Shown: positions 27,204 through 44,188 of the stretch, in pieces
Layout of the letters: the number at the start of each line of letters is the position of its first letter
How positions within the stretch are numbered: position 1 is the first letter of the stretch
From: an uncultured bacterium
Lineage (GTDB): Bacteria; Verrucomicrobiota; Kiritimatiellia; RFP12; UBA1067
Length of the DNA stretch: 44,188 nt
Assembly: GCA_902772905.1 (NCBI GenBank)
Contig: CACYCL010000159.1
Span: forward strand, 1-44,188
Reading direction: 5' to 3'
Made by a program: the position numbers and the translations under genes
Notes under the pieces: generated by a model
Told to the model about the DNA's origin: nothing
What the model saw: only the letters and a program-made list of their open reading frames with translations
The model's database searches: none

Positions 27204-28355
27204 CTACGCATTAAACCAAGGCACGATCTCGATTTCACCGTCTCGTTGCGGAAGGTTCCCGCCGTAGATTATTCTTGCCTTGTCAGCGCCACACGCCGAC
27301 GTTGCCAACCATCGGCGCATTGGCCGCGCCCATTCGCCTCGGTATGTGCGCCCGCTCTTGATTTCAATCGGATGGGGTCCGTCAACCATCTCATCTATCA
27401 AATCAATTTCAAGTTTCCCGTTGTCCCTCCAGAAATAAAGCCGGGGAATCCGACCGCTGTTGAGACTGCGCTTCCTAAATTCGAGAACGATTGCCGTTTC
27501 GAATATCGCGCCATATTGCGGATGCAGATGCAATTGTCCGGCAGTCTCAATTCCCATAAGCCAGCAGACCAGACCTGTGTCACAAAAATACACCTTCGAC
27601 GACGACACGAGTCTCTTCGAGAAATTCCTGAAATACGGCGGCAGCCGAAACACAATTCCAGAAGCCTCCAAAACGGAAAGCCAAGACTTGGCCGTTGTGT
27701 GCGATATGCCAGCCTCTCCGCCAAGCGAATGCAAATTCAGCTCCTGCCCGGTACGACCCGCCAAGAGCCTCACAAACAGCTCAAACGTCGTCAAGTCCTT
27801 GACTTTAAGTATCTGCCTTACATCTCGCTCCAAATAGGTCTGGAAATAGGAACTGTACCAAAACCTCGGCGCGGCCTTTCGCGCCAGCACGGGTGGATAC
27901 AGCCCACGCACTATCATATCATCCACATCTACGCCCGACAAACCAGCGCCATGCCACTCCGACCATGTAAACGGACTCATTGACAGCACCCCTACGCGCC
28001 CAGCGAGTGATTGTGTCATTGACTCCATCAATGAAAACTGGCGGGAACCCGTAAGAACATATCGCCCCATTCTATCTGGCGAGGCATCAATCATCCCCTG
28101 AAGATAGGACATCAAGTCCGGAGCATTCTGAATTTCGTCAAAGACAGCCCCGTCGCCATACTGCGCAAGAAAGTACCGAGGATCGCGTAACGCCAAACCC
28201 CTTACATCAGGATCTTCCAATGTAACATACGGCAAATCGGGGAAGGAAGCTTTCGCAAGCGTCGTTTTCCCGCACTGCCTAGGCCCCATGATGGCCACGG
28301 CAGGGAATGTCGCCGCAATTTCCTTCAGTGGAATTTCGATTTCGCGCCTTATCAT
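27204..28355 (-). CDS. AAA ATPase with DUF4143 domain
   Basis: A 383-residue ATPase of the 'AAA_14/DUF4143' group that is scattered in many copies through bacterial and archaeal genomes. Walker A is GPRQCGKTT (about 24-32), Walker B is GAVFDEIQ, the sensor segment is YVLTGSRQF, and the second half is the DUF4143 region including EASGIVFRLPPYFRNFSKRLVSSSKVYFCDTGL, FETAIVLEFRKR and a restriction-endonuclease-like LYFWRDNGKLEIDLI...IEIKSG. The D-X(n)-E-X-K pattern suggests a nuclease-like fold, but the role of these proteins is not established. GGAG (28369-28366) is the ribosome site. It stands alone between metabolic genes and the polysaccharide cluster, and its promoter sits inside a long inverted repeat. 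Confidence 0.85.
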   Translation of the reverse strand: MIRREIEIPLKEIAATFPAVAIMGPRQCGKTTLAKASFPDLPYVTLEDPDVRGLALRDPRYFLAQYGDGAVFDEIQNAPDLMSYLQGMIDASPDRMGRYVLTGSRQFSLMESMTQSLAGRVGVLSMSPFTWSEWHGAGLSGVDVDDMIVRGLYPPVLARKAAPRFWYSSYFQTYLERDVRQILKVKDLTTFELFVRLLAGRTGQELNLHSLGGEAGISHTTAKSWLSVLEASGIVFRLPPYFRNFSKRLVSSSKVYFCDTGLVCWLMGIETAGQLHLHPQYGAIFETAIVLEFRKRSLNSGRIPRLYFWRDNGKLEIDLIDEMVDGPHPIEIKSGRTYRGEWARPMRRWLATSACGADKARIIYGGNLPQRDGEIEIVPWFNA

Positions 28356-29399: not shown

Positions 29400-30875
29400 T
29401 CACATGTCCATGTTGTTAATTTCCATCTGCATTCGCTCGAACTCCATCTGCCGCCTGATTTTCTCGTTCTCATCCCCCATCTTGCGCATGTCCAGCGCAA
29501 GCCCTACAAACACCATGGCCCAGCAGAATCCGCCGATATATGACATTGAAAAAAATGAGAACTCTCCAAGATTGGAAACCATAAAGACAAATAAGCAGGA
29601 AGCGCCAATATACGCTTTCCGCTTTATAGATATCGCGATGCTTGCAATCAGGAAGAAAACAAAAATACTCCATCCTATAACCCCTCCCTCTTCCAAGACG
29701 GCCGTCACCCATACACCCTTCTCAATCGGTGCCGTAAGGATGGCAAGCCCCTCTTTTTTTTGGGACTTCATGACTTTTGACACCTGAAAACCATTTCCTA
29801 TCAACGGACTTTTTCTGAAGTTGCGAAGAGATTCTTCAACAAGTGCCACCCGAGAACTGGTTATCCTTTCTGCAGTAACAGGACCAGCATCTTCACTATT
29901 CGTTTTCACCAAGAATTTTATTGCCCTAGCCTGTACGGACGGGACAAAAGCAGCTCCCAAAACAAGAAGCGACAGTATCCCCATCGCAGCGGTCATCACC
30001 TTCGACTTCCAGCTCGCCCTTATCCCGCGCGCGTTCATGAAGACCCACAACAAAAACAACTGTCCCACAATATAGGTAGCCATTCCCGTCCGACTTGAAG
30101 TAAGATAGACAAGGTAAGGTACGCAGCAAAGTAGAACAATATAAAGCGGATCTGCCTTCTTGATGGAAAAAAGGAGATCTCCCAGAAGTAAAACTGAAAC
30201 AACCGACACAAGCGGCCCAAGGCATTGTGGCTGACTGCTCATGCCCATAAAACGGCTCACAAGGCCTGACAAATCCGCTTGTCCATTTATAAAGTCTTCT
30301 GCCCGCATCTGAGACAGCCCTGGGAATGGCACAAGCGCGACAGAACCCAAGATGAATACAATTGCCAAAGACAACATCACGCTCCTAATCCTTCTGGTGG
30401 AAATCTGAGGATTGACACCAACCTGATTTGACACGCCGACGTAGGAATAATACACAAGAGTAAACAATATCAACTTCAAAAAAGATATCTTCGGATTCCA
30501 CCCCAACAGTGACGGAAACACCATGAACAATACGTAGCACAGCATCCAGGCATACGGACGAATCGCACCATGCAAAGGATACGACATGACGTTTACCGCC
30601 ATTATACAGCCAAGGAAAACCATTACGCCCCTTTGCATATAGGCAAAACCACCGCCCTTATATACTATATACGGATTGGCAACAAGTGTGCTGACTGATA
30701 CAAGCAACCAGAACAGCAGCGACTCCGTTTTTCGCGCCAGAGCACTGTAAAGCACCATTGGAATGACTATCGCGAACCCAGCGCCACCCGTCACCCGCAT
30801 AAGGCCGAACACAACGCCAATCCACAGCAGACATTTGAACAGATACTTTTTATCATATATCTCTGAAAATTTCAT
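29400..30875 (-). CDS. O-antigen polymerase/ligase-like membrane protein (Wzy/WaaL)
   Basis: A 491-residue polytopic protein with about 11-12 hydrophobic helices and one large soluble loop (about residues 305-375). The segment YLTSSRTGMATYIVGQLFLLW and the loop's SPLIGNGFQVSK correspond to the Wzy_C/O-antigen ligase signature, where basic residues in the loops bind undecaprenyl-linked sugars. It therefore either polymerises repeat units or ligates the glycan to the lipid A core; sequence alone does not separate these. The last 40 residues are charged and Met-rich. An A8 tract on the coding strand (plus-strand T8 at 29754-29761) encodes the QKK of SQKKEG. Starts at ATG 30875, 15 bases past the GT4 stop. 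Confidence 0.82.
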   Translation of the reverse strand: MKFSEIYDKKYLFKCLLWIGVVFGLMRVTGGAGFAIVIPMVLYSALARKTESLLFWLLVSVSTLVANPYIVYKGGGFAYMQRGVMVFLGCIMAVNVMSYPLHGAIRPYAWMLCYVLFMVFPSLLGWNPKISFLKLILFTLVYYSYVGVSNQVGVNPQISTRRIRSVMLSLAIVFILGSVALVPFPGLSQMRAEDFINGQADLSGLVSRFMGMSSQPQCLGPLVSVVSVLLLGDLLFSIKKADPLYIVLLCCVPYLVYLTSSRTGMATYIVGQLFLLWVFMNARGIRASWKSKVMTAAMGILSLLVLGAAFVPSVQARAIKFLVKTNSEDAGPVTAERITSSRVALVEESLRNFRKSPLIGNGFQVSKVMKSQKKEGLAILTAPIEKGVWVTAVLEEGGVIGWSIFVFFLIASIAISIKRKAYIGASCLFVFMVSNLGEFSFFSMSYIGGFCWAMVFVGLALDMRKMGDENEKIRRQMEFERMQMEINNMDM

Positions 30876-34698: not shown

Positions 34699-35436
34699 TC
34701 ATCTCCCGAAGATTCGAAAATGCAATTCATCCATCGTTCGCCCGAACACACGCCAAAGCCCCCAGGCAATTCTTCGCAGGCCAGTCCTCCCCCGGACGAT
34801 GGAGTCGTATTCAAGATTGCTGTGGAAGTCAGAACGGTTCTGGATTGCCACTGTCGGCTTCGCATGATAAAGCTCTATGTGCCCGCGTTTTGTCCAACGC
34901 GGATAGGAATCGCACGTAACAACCATGGGATGATTGATGCGCAATATCTCTTTTGCCGCGGCAAGAGTCACGACATACGCCTCGGTGCAATAGTCATATC
35001 CGCAGCGTTCAAGATGCGGTGCTTCGCCTGAAGCCTTGATTTCCATCGCATGACCATGCGAATGGTCCGAGAGAAGCACCCATTGCGGTTTCTCAGGATT
35101 GATCACACTCGAAACGAAAGAAATAATGCGCGGCGCATCAGAGGAAAATCTTACATCGTCCTCCATGACAAGCGCAACAGGAACATTCTCCGACAGCATT
35201 CTACGGTATATGTTCATATGCGAAAGCGCACAGCCGATCTGTCCCGGCGTATACATCGTGCCATTCGCGAAGAGAGCGCGCAATCGGGATACATGCTTGC
35301 GAATCTCGGCCTTGGTCAAATTCTTCCCGCTCACGGCAGGAACACGCTCATAAGCGATTCCCAGTGCACGCAACTGGGAATCCGCCGCTGCGAGACGATC
35401 TTTGTCCCTGTCAAGATTGATTAGAAATGCTCTCAT
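34699..35436 (-). CDS. Glycosyltransferase family 25 (LPS biosynthesis type)
   Basis: A 245-residue protein of the GT25 group that includes LOS galactosyltransferases (LgtB/LgtE/LpsA). It opens MRAFLINLDRDKDRLAAADSQL, has the conserved GQIGCALSHMNIYRRM and the VMEDDVRF acidic cluster, then YVVTLAAAKEIL and DSYPRW. These fit the 'Glyco_transf_25' domain over its whole length. A galactosyl transfer is common in the family but is not proved here. It follows the GT10 gene by 27 bases. Confidence 0.9.
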   Translation of the reverse strand: MRAFLINLDRDKDRLAAADSQLRALGIAYERVPAVSGKNLTKAEIRKHVSRLRALFANGTMYTPGQIGCALSHMNIYRRMLSENVPVALVMEDDVRFSSDAPRIISFVSSVINPEKPQWVLLSDHSHGHAMEIKASGEAPHLERCGYDYCTEAYVVTLAAAKEILRINHPMVVTCDSYPRWTKRGHIELYHAKPTVAIQNRSDFHSNLEYDSIVRGRTGLRRIAWGLWRVFGRTMDELHFRIFGR

Positions 35437-35463: not shown

Positions 35464-36426
35464 CTATCTCAAACAAGCCTTGATTCTACGCAAGCATTTG
35501 ACTGGCGCGGCAAGCGCATCGTGAATGGCATAGAGCCTGCGCATCCTAAAACGGTGAATCGACTGGAAACCGTACCGGTTGAGACGACGAGCCTTTTCTA
35601 TTGGCTGATCGATTATGTGGCAAAGAAACTTCTCAAGTTCCTTTTCGTAAAAGTCGTGCGGTTGGACTAGGCACGGCGTCTTCGCCTTCTCGAGATACGC
35701 CGCGTCGTCGGTGTCGAGGCGGACAATTTCCTGAATCGCCCGGTCGATATCCGCCTCGTCCCTTACGCAGACCATCGAGGCTGGAGTGAAATCCTTCGCT
35801 ATCAAAGGATTACCCCAGTAGATCGGAACCGAGAAGCAGGTAAGCGGCTGCATCACCTTCTCGGTCGTATATCCAGGCGAAGAACTGTTCTCGAAAGCAA
35901 TATTGAACTTGTACTGACTGCAGAACGCCATCTTGTCCTTGACGTTCCCGCCGATATTGTTTAAGTACCTGCCTCCGCTGTCCACCCGCTTGTACTTGGA
36001 AAGCGCGTGGAAGAACTTGGTGCGCATCGGGTCTCCGTAGCCGCCGTTGGTGACGACGAAACTGCAAAACTTGCGATTGAGCAACGCATCGTCAGGCGGA
36101 GGATTTGCCCTGCCAGCAAGCTTTGGATACTCGGCAAAGAATACATATAACGGGACTCTCAGATAACGGTCGCCGAAGGAAAGATGGTCAAACCCGATGG
36201 CGTAGTCGAACTCGTTGAAGTCCGGAACTATGTTCTCGCCGATGTCCGCTATCTTCACGCAGTCGTATTTGACATGCGAGTGACCGTTCTGGCTGCATAT
36301 CAAATAGTCGGGCTTGTCGGAAAGCTCGATATCGTAGTGTCTGGCGAGAAGCTTGTAATAGAAGTCCTCTTCGGGAACGAATCCGCCCCACTTGTCCGCA
36401 AAGCCAAGTTTGATTTTCTTCTTCAT
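35464..36426 (-). CDS. GT10 alpha-1,3/4-fucosyltransferase-like
   Basis: A 320-residue protein with the GT10 C-terminal signature YKFNIAFENSSSPGYTTEKV followed by PLTCFSVPIYWGNPLIAKDF. This is the GDP-fucose-binding motif shared by Helicobacter alpha-1,3-fucosyltransferases and animal FucTs. The N-terminal half (KIKLGFADKWGGFVP...) is the acceptor-side domain; a basic tail (RFRMRRLYA...CLRRIKACLR) could hold the enzyme at the membrane. Bacterial GT10 enzymes build Lewis X/A-type branches, but the acceptor here is unknown. It starts at ATG 36426, overlapping the acyltransferase stop by 4 bases, and a GT11 gene is two genes away. Confidence 0.9.
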   Translation of the reverse strand: MKKKIKLGFADKWGGFVPEEDFYYKLLARHYDIELSDKPDYLICSQNGHSHVKYDCVKIADIGENIVPDFNEFDYAIGFDHLSFGDRYLRVPLYVFFAEYPKLAGRANPPPDDALLNRKFCSFVVTNGGYGDPMRTKFFHALSKYKRVDSGGRYLNNIGGNVKDKMAFCSQYKFNIAFENSSSPGYTTEKVMQPLTCFSVPIYWGNPLIAKDFTPASMVCVRDEADIDRAIQEIVRLDTDDAAYLEKAKTPCLVQPHDFYEKELEKFLCHIIDQPIEKARRLNRYGFQSIHRFRMRRLYAIHDALAAPVKCLRRIKACLR

Positions 36427-37406
36427 AATCCACTCCCAATCTTCCCGAGCCCTTCATCAATTCTTATCAGCACGCTGTCATAGCAACCATCAAGCAATTT
36501 ATAAACCCGGTCCAGAATTGGACGCATAAACCATATAAACACACGACGCGGCACATCTACCGCCAACGCAAGGAAGAACACCGTCAGGGCCGCTGCAAGG
36601 TACGCAATGTAGATATTGCAACCGAAGTCTGTCCACGACATGACAATTCCAACCTCAAAATCTATTTCTGGCTGATGCAGCAAATAGATAGCAAACACCG
36701 AAGGTGACATCAGCATGACCACACGTTCCACCCATGCCGGGATCGCAATTCTCAAGAAAAGCGAGAAAAGCACCGCCGACAACAAGAGTGACACAACATT
36801 CTGGTATTCATTCATACCCAGAGCCGCGAGAACAAACAAAATTGGAGCCAAAATCAAGATAATAGCGAACCTCATCCTTTCTAGGCCATAAAGCCTGTAT
36901 ATGCGGGCTGCGGCATATGCCCCAAGCAGCGTCAACCCGGAAAACGCTTCAAGGCCAGGCGTTACAGGAATATTCAGCTTGCAAAAGAACGGAAGCATCG
37001 GCAGATCACCCCACAAAAATACAGCCGCCAGCAAAGGCATGGCGACGGCAACCGCCCCGCCCCCCCCCCCGCGCGAAATTGCTCCGTCAACGAGCGGTGC
37101 AAGGCACATCATCAGCACGTAAGCATGCAGAAACCAGTATCCTCCGTATATTCCCCATGCACGCGAGATGTCGCCCCTTCCGCAGATCAATGCGCAGACG
37201 CTCCCTGTACCGACAAGTCGCACTATCTTAGAAGGTCGGAAAGAAGTGCCGTAATATCCAGAAATGAACGCAAACGCCGTAACGCAGAAACAGGTGATGT
37301 TTATGAACCATGCTCTTGAATATCCAGGATTGATCGCTGAATGCAAAAGGCATATCCCGAACATCAGCAACAAGCGAAACAACTCTGTCGACGCATTGCG
37401 CTTCAT
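36423..37406 (-). CDS. Acyltransferase family 3 membrane protein with poly-G tract
   Basis: A 327-residue protein with about ten hydrophobic helices. It opens MKRNASTELFRLLLMFGICLLHSA, where the Arg and His match the acyltransferase-3 (OafA/NodX-like) active-site pattern RxxxxxxVxxxH. These enzymes transfer acetyl groups to surface sugars. The GGGGG of ISRGGGGGAVAVA (about residues 112-119) is coded by a run of 11 G on the coding strand. A single-base change in that run would end the protein early. The family is usually nearer 350 residues, so it is slightly short. It overlaps both neighbours by 4 bases (GT11 before it, GT10 after it). Confidence 0.88.
   Translation of the reverse strand: MKRNASTELFRLLLMFGICLLHSAINPGYSRAWFINITCFCVTAFAFISGYYGTSFRPSKIVRLVGTGSVCALICGRGDISRAWGIYGGYWFLHAYVLMMCLAPLVDGAISRGGGGGAVAVAMPLLAAVFLWGDLPMLPFFCKLNIPVTPGLEAFSGLTLLGAYAAARIYRLYGLERMRFAIILILAPILFVLAALGMNEYQNVVSLLLSAVLFSLFLRIAIPAWVERVVMLMSPSVFAIYLLHQPEIDFEVGIVMSWTDFGCNIYIAYLAAALTVFFLALAVDVPRRVFIWFMRPILDRVYKLLDGCYDSVLIRIDEGLGKIGSGL
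37060..37070. repeat. Homopolymer C11 (G11 on coding strand) in acyltransferase gene
   Basis: Eleven consecutive C on the plus strand, preceded by CCCCG, lie in the first third of the acyltransferase-3 gene. The frame is open at this length. Long G/C homopolymers inside surface-glycan genes are the classic phase-variation elements of Campylobacter, Helicobacter and Neisseria. A sequencing or assembly length error is possible in any homopolymer. Confidence 0.95.
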
Positions 37407-38257
37407 CTTCCACCCACCTTTCTCAAAATATTTCCCGCAGCGGTCTTTGTCATGTGGAACAACGCCGAAAGACGCTGGGGAAGCGTGTAGCGGTTTTCAA
37501 TCACCTGACTGCCAGGGAAATACATGCCAGAACTGTCCTGACCCTTTATTGCCATTCCGAACCACATCGACGGGAAAACCGTGAGCTGCGCGCCAGGCGA
37601 AGAATCAAGCATGCCGAGATACGCGCCCCAGAACGAGAATGACGAATTTGAGCAGACATGTCCGCCGCGGCACTTCGCCATGAGGAAGAGATCTGTCATG
37701 ACGTCATTGCCTTCCGAGAATAAGAAATCGTGGCCTTCAAACACCTTGCGCGAAAAGAACTTGCGGCACCACGGGATGTCGTCGGAGCAGACCAAGAAGC
37801 GCATCCTGCGTCCGCCGCCTCGCGCGGCAAATATGGCGACCGCCTTTTCAAGATACTTCGCTCCGACGAACGGATGGCGATGAGGCAGCGAGAGATAGTC
37901 GCCCCTGCGGACATGGATGGAGACGACGTCATCCCAGTCGGCGACTGACCGCCCATATTTATCTTCTATTCGCCTCTCCACCTCCGACGGGCATTTGAAT
38001 AGGCCTCGGACGACTTCTGGCTTGAGAAGCCGCCAGTCCTGAAAGAGCCCGACACGCACCGGCGCCACCCCCGGCGCGACGCGCACATACTCGGCCTCCG
38101 GCCAAAGTGCCGCGTACTTCCGCACGGCGTCAATGCTCTGTCTGCCGCCAATGACAAAAGTGACCTGCTCATCAGGAGCCACGCTCCTAGCCGCAGCATA
38201 CTGGAACATCCAGTTGCCGAGCCGCGTCGAACACGGATCCACCTTGACGTAGGTCAT
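37403..38257 (-). CDS. GT11 alpha-1,2-fucosyltransferase-like
   Basis: A 284-residue GT-B enzyme of family GT11. The three hallmark segments are present: RLGNWMFQYAAARS at the N-terminus, VSIHVRRGDYL (the GDP-fucose-binding HxRRGDY motif) and NSSFSFWGAYLG near the C-terminus. The family includes Helicobacter FutC and E. coli WbsJ, which add fucose alpha-1,2 to galactose, making H-type or Lewis Y/B structures. The exact acceptor is not predictable. GDP-fucose synthesis genes are not in the window. ATG 38257 overlaps the stop of the GT2 gene before it. Confidence 0.93.
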   Translation of the reverse strand: MTYVKVDPCSTRLGNWMFQYAAARSVAPDEQVTFVIGGRQSIDAVRKYAALWPEAEYVRVAPGVAPVRVGLFQDWRLLKPEVVRGLFKCPSEVERRIEDKYGRSVADWDDVVSIHVRRGDYLSLPHRHPFVGAKYLEKAVAIFAARGGGRRMRFLVCSDDIPWCRKFFSRKVFEGHDFLFSEGNDVMTDLFLMAKCRGGHVCSNSSFSFWGAYLGMLDSSPGAQLTVFPSMWFGMAIKGQDSSGMYFPGSQVIENRYTLPQRLSALFHMTKTAAGNILRKVGGR

Positions 38258-39255
38258 CTCCGCCGCCTCCTACGGAAGATTGTCTTCACTCGATATGGTG
38301 TCAAGCACAGAAAACGTGCCAGCATCTTTGCGACAAGCGGAGCTCCTGCGCAGATCCTCAACAGACGGACTATACAAGCATACCATATCGACAGCCACGA
38401 TATAAAGTCACAACTGGCAACGCTCTTCAGCCAAGCGGCAAAAAGTAGATTTCGCTCCACCCTGCTCTCCACGTCAGCAATGCGTATCTGGGGAACCTCC
38501 ATCCACAACACCGTCATGTTGCGACGCACGGGGCTCGGCACTGTCTTCCCGGACAAAGCAAGCAGCCGGAGGCACTCTCTGGAGAAATCAATACAGCTGA
38601 AAATCTTCCTCGCATCCATCGGCGCATGTGCCATGGATCCAGAACGCAGTCTATATCCGTAATCGCGATACGGAAGGACGGCGGCAAGCGTAGAGCGGCA
38701 AAGGCACTTCATCGTATAGATTCTGTCCGCGCCGATGCAGTAGTCGGTAAACCGCAAATCGCCGAATACTTCACGCCTATACGTGGTGCTCCAGACCCCA
38801 ATCATGAATAACGGAGCATCAAGCAGGTGCGAAGTGTCATACCAGACGGCACGGCCTTGATCCCGTTTGAACGCACACCGTTCTCCATCCTTGAAATTGA
38901 CCTGTCCAACGCTCACCATATCCACCGGTCGACCATCGCCTATTGCCGCGGCGAAATCAGCAAGCGCATCTGGCGCCCATATATCGTCGCCATCAAGATA
39001 GCATATCCAATCACCTGCGGCAATCTCCAGCCCGGCATTGCGTGCGCTTCCCTCTCCGCCATTCGGCTTGTGGATCACCTTGACTCTCCGGTCCAAGGCG
39101 GCGAACTCGTCCAATATCGCAGGAGTGCAGTCGGTCGACCCATCATCAACGCAGATGCACTCAAAATCCGTGAATGTCTGCGCCAACACGGATTCCACCG
39201 CATCGCGCGCGTAGGTCTCCAGATTGTAAAAAGGAACTATGACGGAAAAGGTCAT
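38254..39255 (-). CDS. Glycosyltransferase family 2
   Basis: A 333-residue GT-A enzyme. MTFSVIVPFYNLETYARDAVESVLAQTF and CICVDDGSTDCTP start the fold; ICYLDGDDIWAPDALADF holds the metal-binding DGDD. An RRRRR tail closes the protein after a hydrophobic, basic C-terminal region that may bind the membrane. ATG 39255 begins the conserved fold and overlaps the preceding stop (ATGA). The in-frame extension upstream is the preceding gene in another frame. Sugar unknown. Confidence 0.9.
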   Translation of the reverse strand: MTFSVIVPFYNLETYARDAVESVLAQTFTDFECICVDDGSTDCTPAILDEFAALDRRVKVIHKPNGGEGSARNAGLEIAAGDWICYLDGDDIWAPDALADFAAAIGDGRPVDMVSVGQVNFKDGERCAFKRDQGRAVWYDTSHLLDAPLFMIGVWSTTYRREVFGDLRFTDYCIGADRIYTMKCLCRSTLAAVLPYRDYGYRLRSGSMAHAPMDARKIFSCIDFSRECLRLLALSGKTVPSPVRRNMTVLWMEVPQIRIADVESRVERNLLFAAWLKSVASCDFISWLSIWYACIVRLLRICAGAPLVAKMLARFLCLTPYRVKTIFRRRRRR

Positions 39256-41348
39256 TTGCAGTTCTTTCGCAGTCCGAGCGTCACGGCGATACGCTTGAAT
39301 CCGTTCTTTCGGAGCGAGGCAAAAACCGCCCTGAGTTTGCGCCAGCGGTTGATCCACCAACGCCAGCGACATTCACGCTCAGAGACATAAAATCCAGCAT
39401 CATCGATTATGAAACCTACTGCGCGTTCGTATGGCACTTCCGCCCATTTGAAAAAGCGCCGCGTCTTCACGCCGATGTAGTGAAAAACCGATATCTCATT
39501 ACCGTCAAGCAGCAGGCGCCCGCCCGGCTCCATCGTCACCATCCTGCCGGCAAGTCCGCATTCAGTAATGAAATCATCGTGCTTGAACTTGATCTCTGGA
39601 GTCCGCCACACCACTGCGGAGTAGCTGTCGCGAATCGCGCGGCAATCTTCAATCGTCATTTCGCCACGTTCAAGCTGCGGGAACATAACACAACCGATTT
39701 CGTCAAAGAACTCTATATCCGTAATCTTGGAATCAACAATTTCCTTCCAATTGTCGGCTTTCATAAAAAGCCGGTTGAGTTCATAGTTGTTCCTAGCAAA
39801 CATTAACGGCCCGGAGCACCAATGTTTTCTCGCCGAAACAACATCTGATCCCGATGTCAACATTGCATCAAGAAATTCGTTCAGCTTGTTGCCGTATACT
39901 ACATCGCAATCTCCCCAGCCGATGTACTTATAATCTTTAATATAGTCTTCAAAAATACATCCATACATCGGCTTGAAGTCGCAAAGCCTTTTAGGGCCAT
40001 TCAGGGTCACCGGCACCCCAAGGCGTTCCCTCGCCAATCGCTTAAATTCTTCAAACGACATCTTGATAATCTTGAAATTTCCTGGATGCGCTCCGACTTC
40101 TACGTCAGAGAAAAACAACACATCTAGGTGCTTGCCTTCCAGACTTTTAAGAAAAAGGCCGAAGTAAGGCGGAAGCTTGCCGAAATACGGCATTAGCAAA
40201 GCTATGCTGTTCTTCTTCATGCGCGGATTATAGAGCAAATTCGCCTCCACCGCGACAACTGGCCCATGCGGCCTAGAGTGCCGCGTCTTGCGGCAGAAAA
40301 CGCCGTTGGCAAGGCGGCTGTATACACGAGCGAGAAAGATGGCGAAAAGCGAAAGGCGACCGTTCTTACGCCAACGCGAGACATACGGATATTTGAGTCG
40401 TCGGGAGAACACGACCTTCCCGGTCGACACCGCCAAACTGGCGTTTTTCGCAACGATGGCGTCAACGCGGGCAAAGCCGTCGTTGACCTCTGCCAGCGGC
40501 GCAAAAATGAAATAGTTGTAGTATAGATTCGCGGCCACGCTGTGCAGTTTCGCCGCGAAGAACCGCGACCTCCCCGGATCGCCATGGTATCCGCCCAGCT
40601 CCGCAACCATGCGCGCAAGTATCTTTTCAAGATGGCTGGAGCTGCGGCTGACAACTTCACGCGAAATGCTCTGCCCTTCCCGTCCTTGCAGAGACCGGTA
40701 GACGACGCCCGGCAGATACCGAATCTTCCTGACACCAAGCATGGGATAGGTTATCCATTCAAGGTCAGTGTAGAGAATGCCCTCCGACTGGTGATAGCCT
40801 ATGTCGCGCAATGTCTGGGCGCGGAAAGTAGACATATGCATGAAGCAGCATCTCTCAAGGGGCTCGTCGACGCCAACATCCACATCCAAGCCCTCACCGT
40901 GCTTAAGCACGCTGGTTTCCGCTCCCGTCGCATCGACAGTGCAATAATCAGACAAAACCAAGTCCACCTCATCAAGCGCCCCACTTGCCGAGCCATCAAT
41001 AAGAAATTCCAGCAGCCTGGCAAACTCTGCCGTATTGACGGAATCGTCGGCGTCAAGGGTCTTCACGAACTCGCCCTTTGCCTCGGCGAGCCCGCAGTTG
41101 ACGCAGCTGCCGTAGTGTCCGTTCTCCTTGTCGATGACGCGGAACGTCCCCGGATACCGTCGCTCGAACGAATGTGCGATTTCGCTTGTTCCATCGGTGG
41201 AGCCGTCGTTGACCACGATCACCTCTAGTCTGGACATAAGATCATCAGACAAAACAACGCTTCGACAGCATGCGTCAAGATACCGTTCCATATTGTAGGC
41301 AGGAACGATCAGAGTCAACGCCTTGGATGCATCAATATCAGTCGCCAT
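39252..41348 (-). CDS. GT2-DUF6625 double glycosyltransferase
   Basis: A 698-residue two-module protein. Module 1 (about 1-375) is a GT2: LTLIVPAYNMERYLDACCRSVV, VIVVNDGSTDGTSE, KTLDADDSVNTAEF. Module 2 starts exactly at Met377: KKNSIALLMPYFGKLPPYFG matches the start of DUF6625-type proteins, continuing with GWGDCDVVYG (a DXD-like site), RKHWCSGPLMFARN and FHYIGVKTRRFF. Two sugar transfers by one polypeptide would fit. TATAAT sits 6 bases before the Met377 codon, so module 2 may also be made alone. Starts at ATG 41348 after GGAAAGGA in the flippase 3' end. Confidence 0.85.
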   Translation of the reverse strand: MATDIDASKALTLIVPAYNMERYLDACCRSVVLSDDLMSRLEVIVVNDGSTDGTSEIAHSFERRYPGTFRVIDKENGHYGSCVNCGLAEAKGEFVKTLDADDSVNTAEFARLLEFLIDGSASGALDEVDLVLSDYCTVDATGAETSVLKHGEGLDVDVGVDEPLERCCFMHMSTFRAQTLRDIGYHQSEGILYTDLEWITYPMLGVRKIRYLPGVVYRSLQGREGQSISREVVSRSSSHLEKILARMVAELGGYHGDPGRSRFFAAKLHSVAANLYYNYFIFAPLAEVNDGFARVDAIVAKNASLAVSTGKVVFSRRLKYPYVSRWRKNGRLSLFAIFLARVYSRLANGVFCRKTRHSRPHGPVVAVEANLLYNPRMKKNSIALLMPYFGKLPPYFGLFLKSLEGKHLDVLFFSDVEVGAHPGNFKIIKMSFEEFKRLARERLGVPVTLNGPKRLCDFKPMYGCIFEDYIKDYKYIGWGDCDVVYGNKLNEFLDAMLTSGSDVVSARKHWCSGPLMFARNNYELNRLFMKADNWKEIVDSKITDIEFFDEIGCVMFPQLERGEMTIEDCRAIRDSYSAVVWRTPEIKFKHDDFITECGLAGRMVTMEPGGRLLLDGNEISVFHYIGVKTRRFFKWAEVPYERAVGFIIDDAGFYVSERECRWRWWINRWRKLRAVFASLRKNGFKRIAVTLGLRKNCK
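40227..40232 (-). promoter_or_regulatory. Possible internal -10 box before the DUF6625 module
   Basis: Minus-strand TATAAT (40232-40227) encodes part of LLYNPR and ends 6 bases before the ATG at 40220. The spacing equals that at der. No good -35 and no TGn extension are seen, so this is weaker than the other promoters. Confidence 0.35.
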
Positions 41349-41351
41349 ACA

Positions 41352-42926
41352 TCAATCCTTTCCTTTCAACATTTCGCCTACAATGGGAATGCGAGACAAA
41401 ACCCTTTCCATCAAAAATGTCCGCTCTTCCTCTTTGAGCACAAAGAACCACACCCCCGGCAGGAAGACAACTTCACAGCATATTGTCGTAAGCACAACGC
41501 GCCAGAAAGACGGCTCTATACACAAGCGCGGCATCAGTCCGGCCGACAGCACAACCAACATCAGTAGCAATATCGGGATCAAAACTTGGCGCCACCACTG
41601 CCGAATGCGGTATCCAAGCAAAACACTGGCCATATACAAATGAACTGAAATCATGGCAATAGCAAAGGCAACAAAACCAGCGACAAGGCTCCACATGCCA
41701 AATCCCAGCGCAAAACAAATCCACGCCACCGAAACAAGTGCAATTCCACCAAGACTTATCGCAAGGCTATACTTGAGCACCCCTACTCCGCAACTGAGAA
41801 TCGCCATCCTATACCCATCGGCCATACGTTCAAATGCGGCAACCGCGAGAAACGCAATACAAAGCTCTGCGGCAAACTGCGGTGGATTTACCAGCCATAA
41901 CCGGAGCACCTCGTGCGCCTCAATGGCAAGCGGCAGGGCGAACACCAGGATCATTATGGACCCAAGTCTGCACACCATCATGCACATCCGCTCTACTCCG
42001 GCCATGTCTCCCTCCCCGGCTTTATTGGCAATCGCCGGACTGAAAGCTCCAGACATCGCGCTCGAAAGCGTCATCGCATGACCTGATACCGATGTGCCTA
42101 CTGCTACACTTGCATTTGCAGCTGGTCCAACATACTTGTTCACCAGAATCGCCGGGCCCTGTCCGCACAACATACCTGAAAAGCCAGAGATGATCCGAGA
42201 TAGCGCAAATGAGAGAATTTCTTTGCACCGCCTGAAATCCCATAGATACGCAAAGACAATCCTGCACTCACTATATTTATAAAATGCTCGTGCAGCAATA
42301 ATTGACTGTGGAATTGCAGAAAGGAGAAGAGAAAACGCCGAGAACTTCACCAGCCAAACACCTGGGTGCATAACCATGTAATACAAAAACATCGCGTTGA
42401 AAGTCGTCGTGGCAAAACCATACAGCGTCAATTCTGCTATCTCCTGTTTCGCCCCGTACATGGCACGAAACGGAACATTCATCATCGAGACCAAAGTAGC
42501 AAGACATGAGAAGCTCCAAACCCAGCGGCAGGCGGCAATACGATCAAGGGGAATGGTGAGAAAACTATTCACCGCCCACAGCCCAATAGGATAACCAATC
42601 ACAACCAAGGCCACCGGAATGACTGCGTGCATCAAAACGGCGGTGTTGAACCATTTTCGACATTCCTCAAGTCCCTTCTCGGCATTGCCCTCCTTTTTCG
42701 CAGCACCAACGCTTACTGCATAGAACCTTCCAACAGATTCAGAAAGCAGATTGTTAATAAAGGTAACAAATGTAACCAGTCCGCCGACGAGCCCCATAAG
42801 TCCATAGTCGGTCTGTCCCAGCGCCATCAGCGTCCAGCGCCCGCAGAACAGACCTATCGCCAGCGCATACAGCGACCGGCCGTAGGTGGCGACGATGTTC
42901 AGGAATATTCTGCGGTTGGGCGACAT
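41352..42926 (-). CDS. wzx: Polysaccharide flippase (Wzx/MATE-like)
   Basis: A 524-residue protein with roughly 12-14 hydrophobic helices. It begins MSPNRRIFLNIVATYGRSLYALAIGLFCGRWTLMALGQTDYGL, the usual opening of 'lipopolysaccharide biosynthesis protein' flippases of the MOP superfamily. It should move undecaprenyl-linked repeat units across the inner membrane. Internal signs include SESVGRFYAVSVG and NKYVGPAANASVAVG. ATG 42926 is chosen because the first helix pair follows directly; no strong ribosome site is visible. It lies 22 bases after the stop of the GT39-like gene and 3 bases before the GT2-DUF6625 start. Confidence 0.88.
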   Translation of the reverse strand: MSPNRRIFLNIVATYGRSLYALAIGLFCGRWTLMALGQTDYGLMGLVGGLVTFVTFINNLLSESVGRFYAVSVGAAKKEGNAEKGLEECRKWFNTAVLMHAVIPVALVVIGYPIGLWAVNSFLTIPLDRIAACRWVWSFSCLATLVSMMNVPFRAMYGAKQEIAELTLYGFATTTFNAMFLYYMVMHPGVWLVKFSAFSLLLSAIPQSIIAARAFYKYSECRIVFAYLWDFRRCKEILSFALSRIISGFSGMLCGQGPAILVNKYVGPAANASVAVGTSVSGHAMTLSSAMSGAFSPAIANKAGEGDMAGVERMCMMVCRLGSIMILVFALPLAIEAHEVLRLWLVNPPQFAAELCIAFLAVAAFERMADGYRMAILSCGVGVLKYSLAISLGGIALVSVAWICFALGFGMWSLVAGFVAFAIAMISVHLYMASVLLGYRIRQWWRQVLIPILLLMLVVLSAGLMPRLCIEPSFWRVVLTTICCEVVFLPGVWFFVLKEEERTFLMERVLSRIPIVGEMLKGKD

Positions 42927-42948
42927 GGCCGGGCAAAGCGGTTTTGGG

Positions 42949-44188
42949 CTACAGTTCCCAGCCCTTGGGCACATACAGCTTCCACTGCGAGCCTTCCAGC
43001 GGAAGCTTTTTGTAGTGTTCGTCTATAACCGGGTACAGATACATGCGGAAGGGATCATTGGCGTAATATCCTCTGCGGCAGTCAAGCGCCAGCTCTCCGT
43101 CCATCGCGTCGAGAATGATGCATGGCGTTTCCGTCAATTTTGCCGCGACGCCATCAAGGAACGCTTGTGACAGAAAGCCAGGCGCGTTGAAAGGCACATA
43201 GTAGTAATATGGCGCCAACGGATTCTTTCTGCCGGTCCGAGCATAAACCTCGCACTTCGATCCCCAGACGAAAAGTCCGGCCTCTGGAAGCGCCGCGATT
43301 CTCTTGACAATCTTCTCATAGTTCACTTCAGTAATTCCAAAACTCGTCTTCCTAGTTCCATACGCGATTTTGTGCCATACATTCTCAGCTACCGTCTGCA
43401 ACCGCGGCAGAAACACAGTCAACAAAGCGACAAAAACAACACAACGCGCAGCCTTGCATGTAGGTTTTGCAGCCAGCAACAGCAGGACTGGCAGATAAAG
43501 CGCCGTCTGCGAAACAACAAATTGATATCCCCACGGGCCTTGGCCAAGCACAAGCAAAGCAAAATCCCACAGGAAGAACATAGACCAGGCAACAACGAGC
43601 GGTACCGCCATGCCAAGTTTTCTGGCCGTCTTCCATCCGAATCCAATTGCGGCAGTCACGAGAACGAAGGCTGTCGACAACCCTTCGGCGAAACCGAAGA
43701 ACCGAAGCGCCAGAAACTTGCGGAAATTTCCTCCGTAGATCGAATTGAACCGGAAGCAGCATTCCAAGTAGTCGCCGAATGAGCCTTTGACGAGCAGTGC
43801 GCCGACAATCACCGCCGTCGTGAGCAGTCCACCGCCAATATACGCCCACAGCGGAGTGCGACGCCTCTGGAAGAACTGAATGAGCGCGAACACCCCCACC
43901 CCAACGAAAAAACCCACGCTTGTCTGCTTGCTGAAGAACGCAAACGCCCCCAGCACCCCGCACAAAACCCAGCCCCATGGCCGCCATCCGGAAAGCAGCA
44001 GCAGGCCGAGCCCTGCGACGCTCATTTCCATCACAAATGTCTCTGGGCGGTTCGGCCAGGCCGGAATCAGCAGCAGGCCCGCGCAGAACCAGAACGCCGC
44101 CTTTACGCCGAATCTACGGACGATGCCGAAATATAGAAGCGCCATCGCCAGCGCATATATTATGTACTCTACTGCGGCAATGCCCAAT
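42949..44188 (-). CDS. GT39-like (GT-C) membrane glycosyltransferase, 5' partial
   Basis: The frame is open to the right edge of the window; 413 codons are visible and the N-terminus is missing. About seven hydrophobic helices (such as GLGLLLLSGWRPWGWVLCGVLGAFAFFSKQTSVGFFVG on the coding strand side) are followed by a soluble C-terminal domain with EAGLFVWGSKCEVYARTGRKNPLAPYYY. The helix pattern and the FxxKQT-like loop fit GT-C transferases of the PMT/ArnT/GT39 kind, which use polyprenyl-phosphate sugars in the periplasm. The catalytic Asp/Glu loop would be in the missing N-terminal part, so the family call is moderate. Confidence 0.65.
   Translation of the reverse strand, partial: LGIAAVEYIIYALAMALLYFGIVRRFGVKAAFWFCAGLLLIPAWPNRPETFVMEMSVAGLGLLLLSGWRPWGWVLCGVLGAFAFFSKQTSVGFFVGVGVFALIQFFQRRRTPLWAYIGGGLLTTAVIVGALLVKGSFGDYLECCFRFNSIYGGNFRKFLALRFFGFAEGLSTAFVLVTAAIGFGWKTARKLGMAVPLVVAWSMFFLWDFALLVLGQGPWGYQFVVSQTALYLPVLLLLAAKPTCKAARCVVFVALLTVFLPRLQTVAENVWHKIAYGTRKTSFGITEVNYEKIVKRIAALPEAGLFVWGSKCEVYARTGRKNPLAPYYYYVPFNAPGFLSQAFLDGVAAKLTETPCIILDAMDGELALDCRRGYYANDPFRMYLYPVIDEHYKKLPLEGSQWKLYVPKGWEL

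Follow-up and report, generated by a model that had tools for sequence, protein, structure and literature searches.

Does a run of eleven guanines in the middle of an acyltransferase gene serve as an on/off switch for a surface polysaccharide, or is it a by-product of a genome that gathers G runs? The question arises from the window analyzed here, a stretch of 44,188 nucleotides from contig CACYCL010000159.1 of an uncultured bacterium (assembly GCA_902772905.1; Verrucomicrobiota, Kiritimatiellia), in which a first-pass annotation proposed a phase-variation tract in an acyltransferase gene situated between two fucosyltransferase genes. We approach it through the anatomy of the locus, the abundance of long G/C runs in the genome, and the state of the homologous genes across the order.

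The Acyltransferase Gene and Its Surroundings

The gene that carries the tract (36423–37406, minus strand) encodes a protein of 327 amino acids that matches the Acyl_transf_3 family (PF01757, herein AT3) at 45.2 bits, exceeding the curated cutoff of 31, in agreement with the membrane acyltransferase that had been proposed; the acylation that we ascribe to it is a family-level call from PF01757. No sequence relatives of the AT3 set were found in the PDB, and an AlphaFold model computed from a two-sequence alignment was set aside (mean pLDDT 40). Directly upstream lies a GT11 fucosyltransferase-family gene (37403–38257, minus strand; PF01531) and directly downstream a GT10 alpha-1,3-fucosyltransferase-like gene (35464–36426, minus strand; PF18025 and PF00852), the latter joined to AT3 by an ATGA overlap. 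Pfam thus confirms the two neighbors that the annotation had named, and the overlap amounts to 4 nt on each side. The GT10 gene is also preceded by its own Shine–Dalgarno-like GGGAG at a suitable spacing.

The same cluster includes genes for a GT2 glycosyltransferase (38254–39264, minus strand; PF00535), a GT25 glycosyltransferase (34699–35436, minus strand; PF01755), a Wzy_C/O-antigen ligase family protein (29400–30875, minus strand; PF04932), and a hydrophobic protein of 540 amino acids (41352–42974, minus strand) that has no Pfam match and is, judged by its sequence, possibly the flippase of the cluster; GT4s, GT2s, and a hexapeptide transferase were also identified by Pfam. This company of Wzy_C, GT2, GT4, GT10, GT11, and GT25 points to a surface structure as the setting in which the AT3 protein acts. 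Elsewhere in the window, an AAA_14/DUF4143 ATPase gene occupies 27204–28355, and a gene that looks similar by eye is found directly behind GT10 in the related genome RUG10963 (L027:8104–9252).

Position and Reading Frame of the G11 Tract

The eleven G that the annotation had placed near residue 113 are present: the plus strand has C11 at 37060–37070 (...CCGCCCCG-C11-GCGCGAAATT...), which is G11 on the coding (minus) strand, starting at nucleotide 337 of the AT3 gene in phase 0 of codon 113 and covering codons 113–116 in frame. All other homopolymers of the window are at most 8 nt long, and its other G/C runs at most 6 nt. The same annotation had described the tract as interrupting the gene, a wording that we do not retain, as the frame 36423–37406 at the G11 length reads through all 327 amino acids. 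When altered tract lengths are translated, those that shift the frame lead to a stop after 131–145 amino acids; on sequence grounds alone, then, a change of tract length alters the AT3 frame in the manner expected for phase variation. The tract is flanked by LAPLVDGAISR and AVAVAMPLLAAVF, that is, it lies between two hydrophobic segments, and AT3 homologs vary in length at this very site. The site accordingly has the appearance of a length-tolerant loop, in which in-frame changes would be accepted and only frameshifts would break the gene.

Long G/C Runs in the Genome

We estimated the rate of run extension from 159 kb of the genome and combined it with genome-wide pattern counts. For G/C runs of 2–6 nt, the probability of extension by one base is ∼0.11–0.18, and exact G7 runs number 22 in the 2.36-Mb genome; anchored on this G7 count, about 0.01–0.25 runs of ≥11 nt are expected, whereas six are present (C39, 15 nt; C69, 11 nt; C81, at least 19 nt; C92, 12 nt; C159, 11 nt; and C183, 13 nt), which are not all independent because those of C69, C92, and C183 share one intergenic repeat context. 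G11 is hence a homopolymer long enough for frequent slippage, and of a length class found beyond chance. Of the twelve runs of ≥9 nt, none but the window tract falls well inside a long open gene (the others having been judged by ORFs only), and two others (C81 and C140) lie at contig ends. Elsewhere in the genome and genus, long G tracts lie mostly between genes, as would also be expected if G runs simply tended to build up.

The shared context is a dispersed intergenic repeat (C69:7573–7583, C92:299–310, and C183:1727–1739, in L010, L012, and L019, respectively) with the pattern GCCGAAATT-G(11-13)-(C/T)AAAATTCCG..GCAAGCGCTCTACG. Dispersed repeats of a different sequence, around G tracts of varying length, occur in the other genus members G012 (L060, L061, L067), G001 (L068, L069, L074, L076), and G010 (L085, L088, L090, L094, L116), two examples being taagtgtagatattttgc-G(11-13)-caaacataacag and gttatttgcaataaatta-C(10-13)-taactttttgacacatta. 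A separate G9 run in the genome of the window (C164; L015:8414–8422) sits just 5′ of the start (ATG) of a gene for a small lipoprotein-like product, in the place of a Shine–Dalgarno sequence, where a change of length could tune translation of that gene.

The Nearest Relative and the Origin of the Tract

The nearest relative, RUG10963 (G012), has kept GT11, AT3, and GT10 at 84% nucleotide identity, in a match that spans about 35493–38274 of the window (L027:5133–7903) and goes no further than the edges of this gene trio. The cassette seems to have been inherited or exchanged as a unit, and the loss of similarity to RUG10963 at both edges of the block suggests exchange between polysaccharide clusters. 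At the site of the tract, RUG10963 reads GCGAAAG---------GGTGCG; it has no homopolymer and is exactly 9 nt shorter, and the reading frame agrees on either side of the gap. The lineage of the window has thus probably gained the tract recently, as three codons inserted without a shift of frame, a polarity that, with one outgroup only, is the simpler reading and not proof.

Because this nearest orthologue has no tract, the tract is not conserved within the genus, which counts against a contingency locus and leaves room for neutral slippage, that is, a recent and unselected G expansion in a tolerant loop, in frame by luck, that mutates fast and has no adaptive role. Long G runs build up in this genus, for the most part within intergenic repeats, and one-third of tract lengths would be in frame by chance. 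Neutral expansion alone nevertheless sits poorly with the window tract being the only one of its genome inside a long gene, and with the relatives of AT3 in another family of the order, which keep tracts across species, as described below; we regard it as unlikely.

Tract-Bearing Homologs Across the Order

Matches to AT3 are present in 16 of the 162 genomes of the order, each species being represented by one genome, so that tract lengths are compared between species. Three homologs from genus g3, which belongs to a sister family within the order, are 44–50% identical and have a G tract at a common early place: G10 in L117 (SLRLTE-GGG) and G9 in L022 (PLKLT-GGG), both in frame with the enzyme, and G11 in L118 (DSLTR-GGG), which is out of frame and in which translation from the upstream ATG hits a stop soon past the tract. 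A fourth g3 homolog, L026, has C8 just past its ATG and is also out of frame. For both L118 and L026 the “OFF” call is weakened by a possible restart of translation at an ATG further downstream, that of LMFGICLLH or its counterpart. The remaining homologs among the 16 genomes are without a tract. A tract that is kept in place at 44–50% identity while its length and frame vary matches the expectation for a contingency tract that is being maintained.

One genome of the order (G051) has further tracts beside its AT3 homolog: the GT4 gene before it has an in-frame G10 separating its two domains and, 2.5 kb further on, a GT25 gene contains an in-frame G9. GT4, AT3, and GT25 on contig C7 of G051 thus each have an in-frame G9–G10 within ∼3.2 kb (L117:826–835 and 1455–1464; L236:1503–1510 region), a grouping that is suggestive but, by a rough whole-genome estimate, not rare enough to carry weight by itself.

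A Predicted Switch in Acylation

Phase variation, as the first-pass annotation proposed it, draws its support from comparison (the tract-free orthologue, the homologs in both frame states, and the in-frame tracts of G051), and at that level it is well supported. We consider it probable that G11 is a slipped-strand contingency locus in an AT3 O-acyltransferase gene of a surface-polysaccharide cluster, and that the gene is ON as assembled. Replication slippage would add or remove one or two G and shift the frame, so that the AT3 protein would end at about 131–145 amino acids (OFF), and OFF cells would make the polysaccharide without this acyl group; in-frame lengths would keep the enzyme ON and alter only the glycine stretch between the hydrophobic segments. 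Translation of the OFF form would end ∼550–580 nt ahead of the overlapping GT10 start, and GT10 output may fall as a result. This effect is plausible from the anatomy (the ATGA overlap and the early stop), and the GGGAG of GT10 may maintain some of its expression, which keeps the coupling conjectural. The genome encodes MutS, and in Neisseria mutations of mismatch repair make mononucleotide tracts switch 100- to 1,000-fold more often (PMC3639595), so the rate of switching could be modest.

The ON call depends on the assembled length, and homopolymers are prone to error, as the tracts of C81 and C140 at contig ends also recall; were the length an artifact of consensus calling or assembly, the gene could be in either state, or the tract would be stable and shorter. 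We think this improbable, given that the contig continues through both flanks in an unbroken alignment to the RUG10963 orthologue and that the frame is open at the assembled length. Homopolymers of about the length of G11 can cause transcriptional slippage, and polymerase or ribosomes that slip on G11 would yield complete and truncated protein in constant proportion from a single DNA sequence, an account that we give very little credence, as tract length and frame differ between the homologs of different species, which fits length change in the DNA, and no observation here requires an RNA-level device.

Comparison with Known Phase-Variable Loci

Helicobacter pylori has phase-variable fucosyltransferases, with homopolymer control of GT10/GT11 fucosylation of surface glycans. 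The window resembles this system in having GT10 and GT11 genes near a homopolymer (and a GT10 whose closest PDB sequence is the alpha-1,3-fucosyltransferase 2nzw); however, its tract lies in the acyltransferase and not in a fucosyltransferase, and could act on GT10 only indirectly. Another parallel is Amuc_2098 of Akkermansia muciniphila, which encodes an acyltransferase of capsule biosynthesis, contains a (C)10 repeat, and has been proposed to be phase variable (PMC3048395): by its description, this too is a surface-polysaccharide acyltransferase of a gut bacterium with a G/C tract of similar length. The window tract is situated mid-gene and between two fucosyltransferase genes. Neisseria pglI is a phase-variable O-acetyltransferase (PMC5445459; PMC9558356) and, like the enzyme predicted to be phase variable here, an AT3-family O-acyltransferase that acts on a surface glycan, although PglI is an AT3-SGNH fusion that modifies pilin glycan and the window protein a stand-alone AT3 of 327 amino acids in a polysaccharide cluster. 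The surface-glycan O-acetyltransferase gene oafA of Haemophilus influenzae is switched by slippage of an in-gene repeat (PMC6479036), in that case a GCAA tetranucleotide as opposed to poly-G, and acetylation of O-antigen rhamnose in Salmonella is switched epigenetically (PMC9558356). Phase variation is well established among surface O-acyltransferases, and to these the window, on our prediction, adds a member in a new lineage.

Poly-G Promoter Spacers in the Order

Of 46 tracts in genus g3, 10 form the spacer of a sigma-70-like promoter on the G strand and 1 does so on the C strand, against a mean of 0.13 after shuffling; none of 70 tracts in the window's own genus does. Across the order, the pattern TTGA-N1-8-G9-N0-8-TATNNT has 110 matches (overlapping variants included) in 37 of 162 genomes, compared with 4 for the reversed pattern, and the commonest poly-G spacers are 16 and 17 nt long. 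Examples include L167:1681, L171:1628, L176:1678, and L163:1681 of G030, with others in G051, G083, G088, and G110. The arrangement corresponds to a known promoter model, Neisseria porA, in which poly-G lies between −10 and −35 (PMC3639595), and in this order looks like a widespread system of promoter phase variation. For the window tract itself, a role of the porA type was ruled out, since it lies mid-gene and without a −35/−10 arrangement; none of the tracts of its genome passed the −35/tract/−10 test.

Ten of these spacer tracts sit ∼40–70 nt 5′ of genes for secreted proteins of ∼210–240 amino acids. Nine of the downstream proteins were scanned, all with a match to PEP-CTERM, and the C-terminal motif of these nine can also be aligned in the tenth. 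These genes (G030 and G038; L156, L160 with two genes, L163, L167, L168, L169, L171, L176, and L180) encode a divergent PEP-CTERM family whose members share a signal peptide, a Trp close to the N-terminus of the mature protein, and the C-terminal sequence VPEPTALALLALGVAGLALRRR. Many of the genes downstream of spacer tracts in G083, G088, and G110 also have signal-peptide-like starts.

Implications for the Lineage and the Order

Considered together, the comparisons point to widespread poly-G switching throughout the order. We tentatively hypothesize, with the balance of our judgment slightly against it, that the window tract is part of a large poly-G “phasome” of this uncultured gut order, which has mismatch repair, and that in it coding tracts toggle acyltransferases and glycosyltransferases of glycans while −35/−10 spacers toggle the promoters of secreted proteins, those with PEP-CTERM among them. 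If true, envelope glycans and surface proteins would be diversified by a single mutational mechanism. To our knowledge, most work on poly-G contingency loci has concerned Neisseria, Haemophilus, Campylobacter, and Helicobacter; the locus described here belongs to an uncultured lineage in which such switches have hardly been studied and to which a rumen genome is the nearest relative. There, a single slippage event could change how one surface polysaccharide is acylated, and perhaps how it is fucosylated, which would probably affect the adsorption of phages as well as recognition of the cells by the host or the community.
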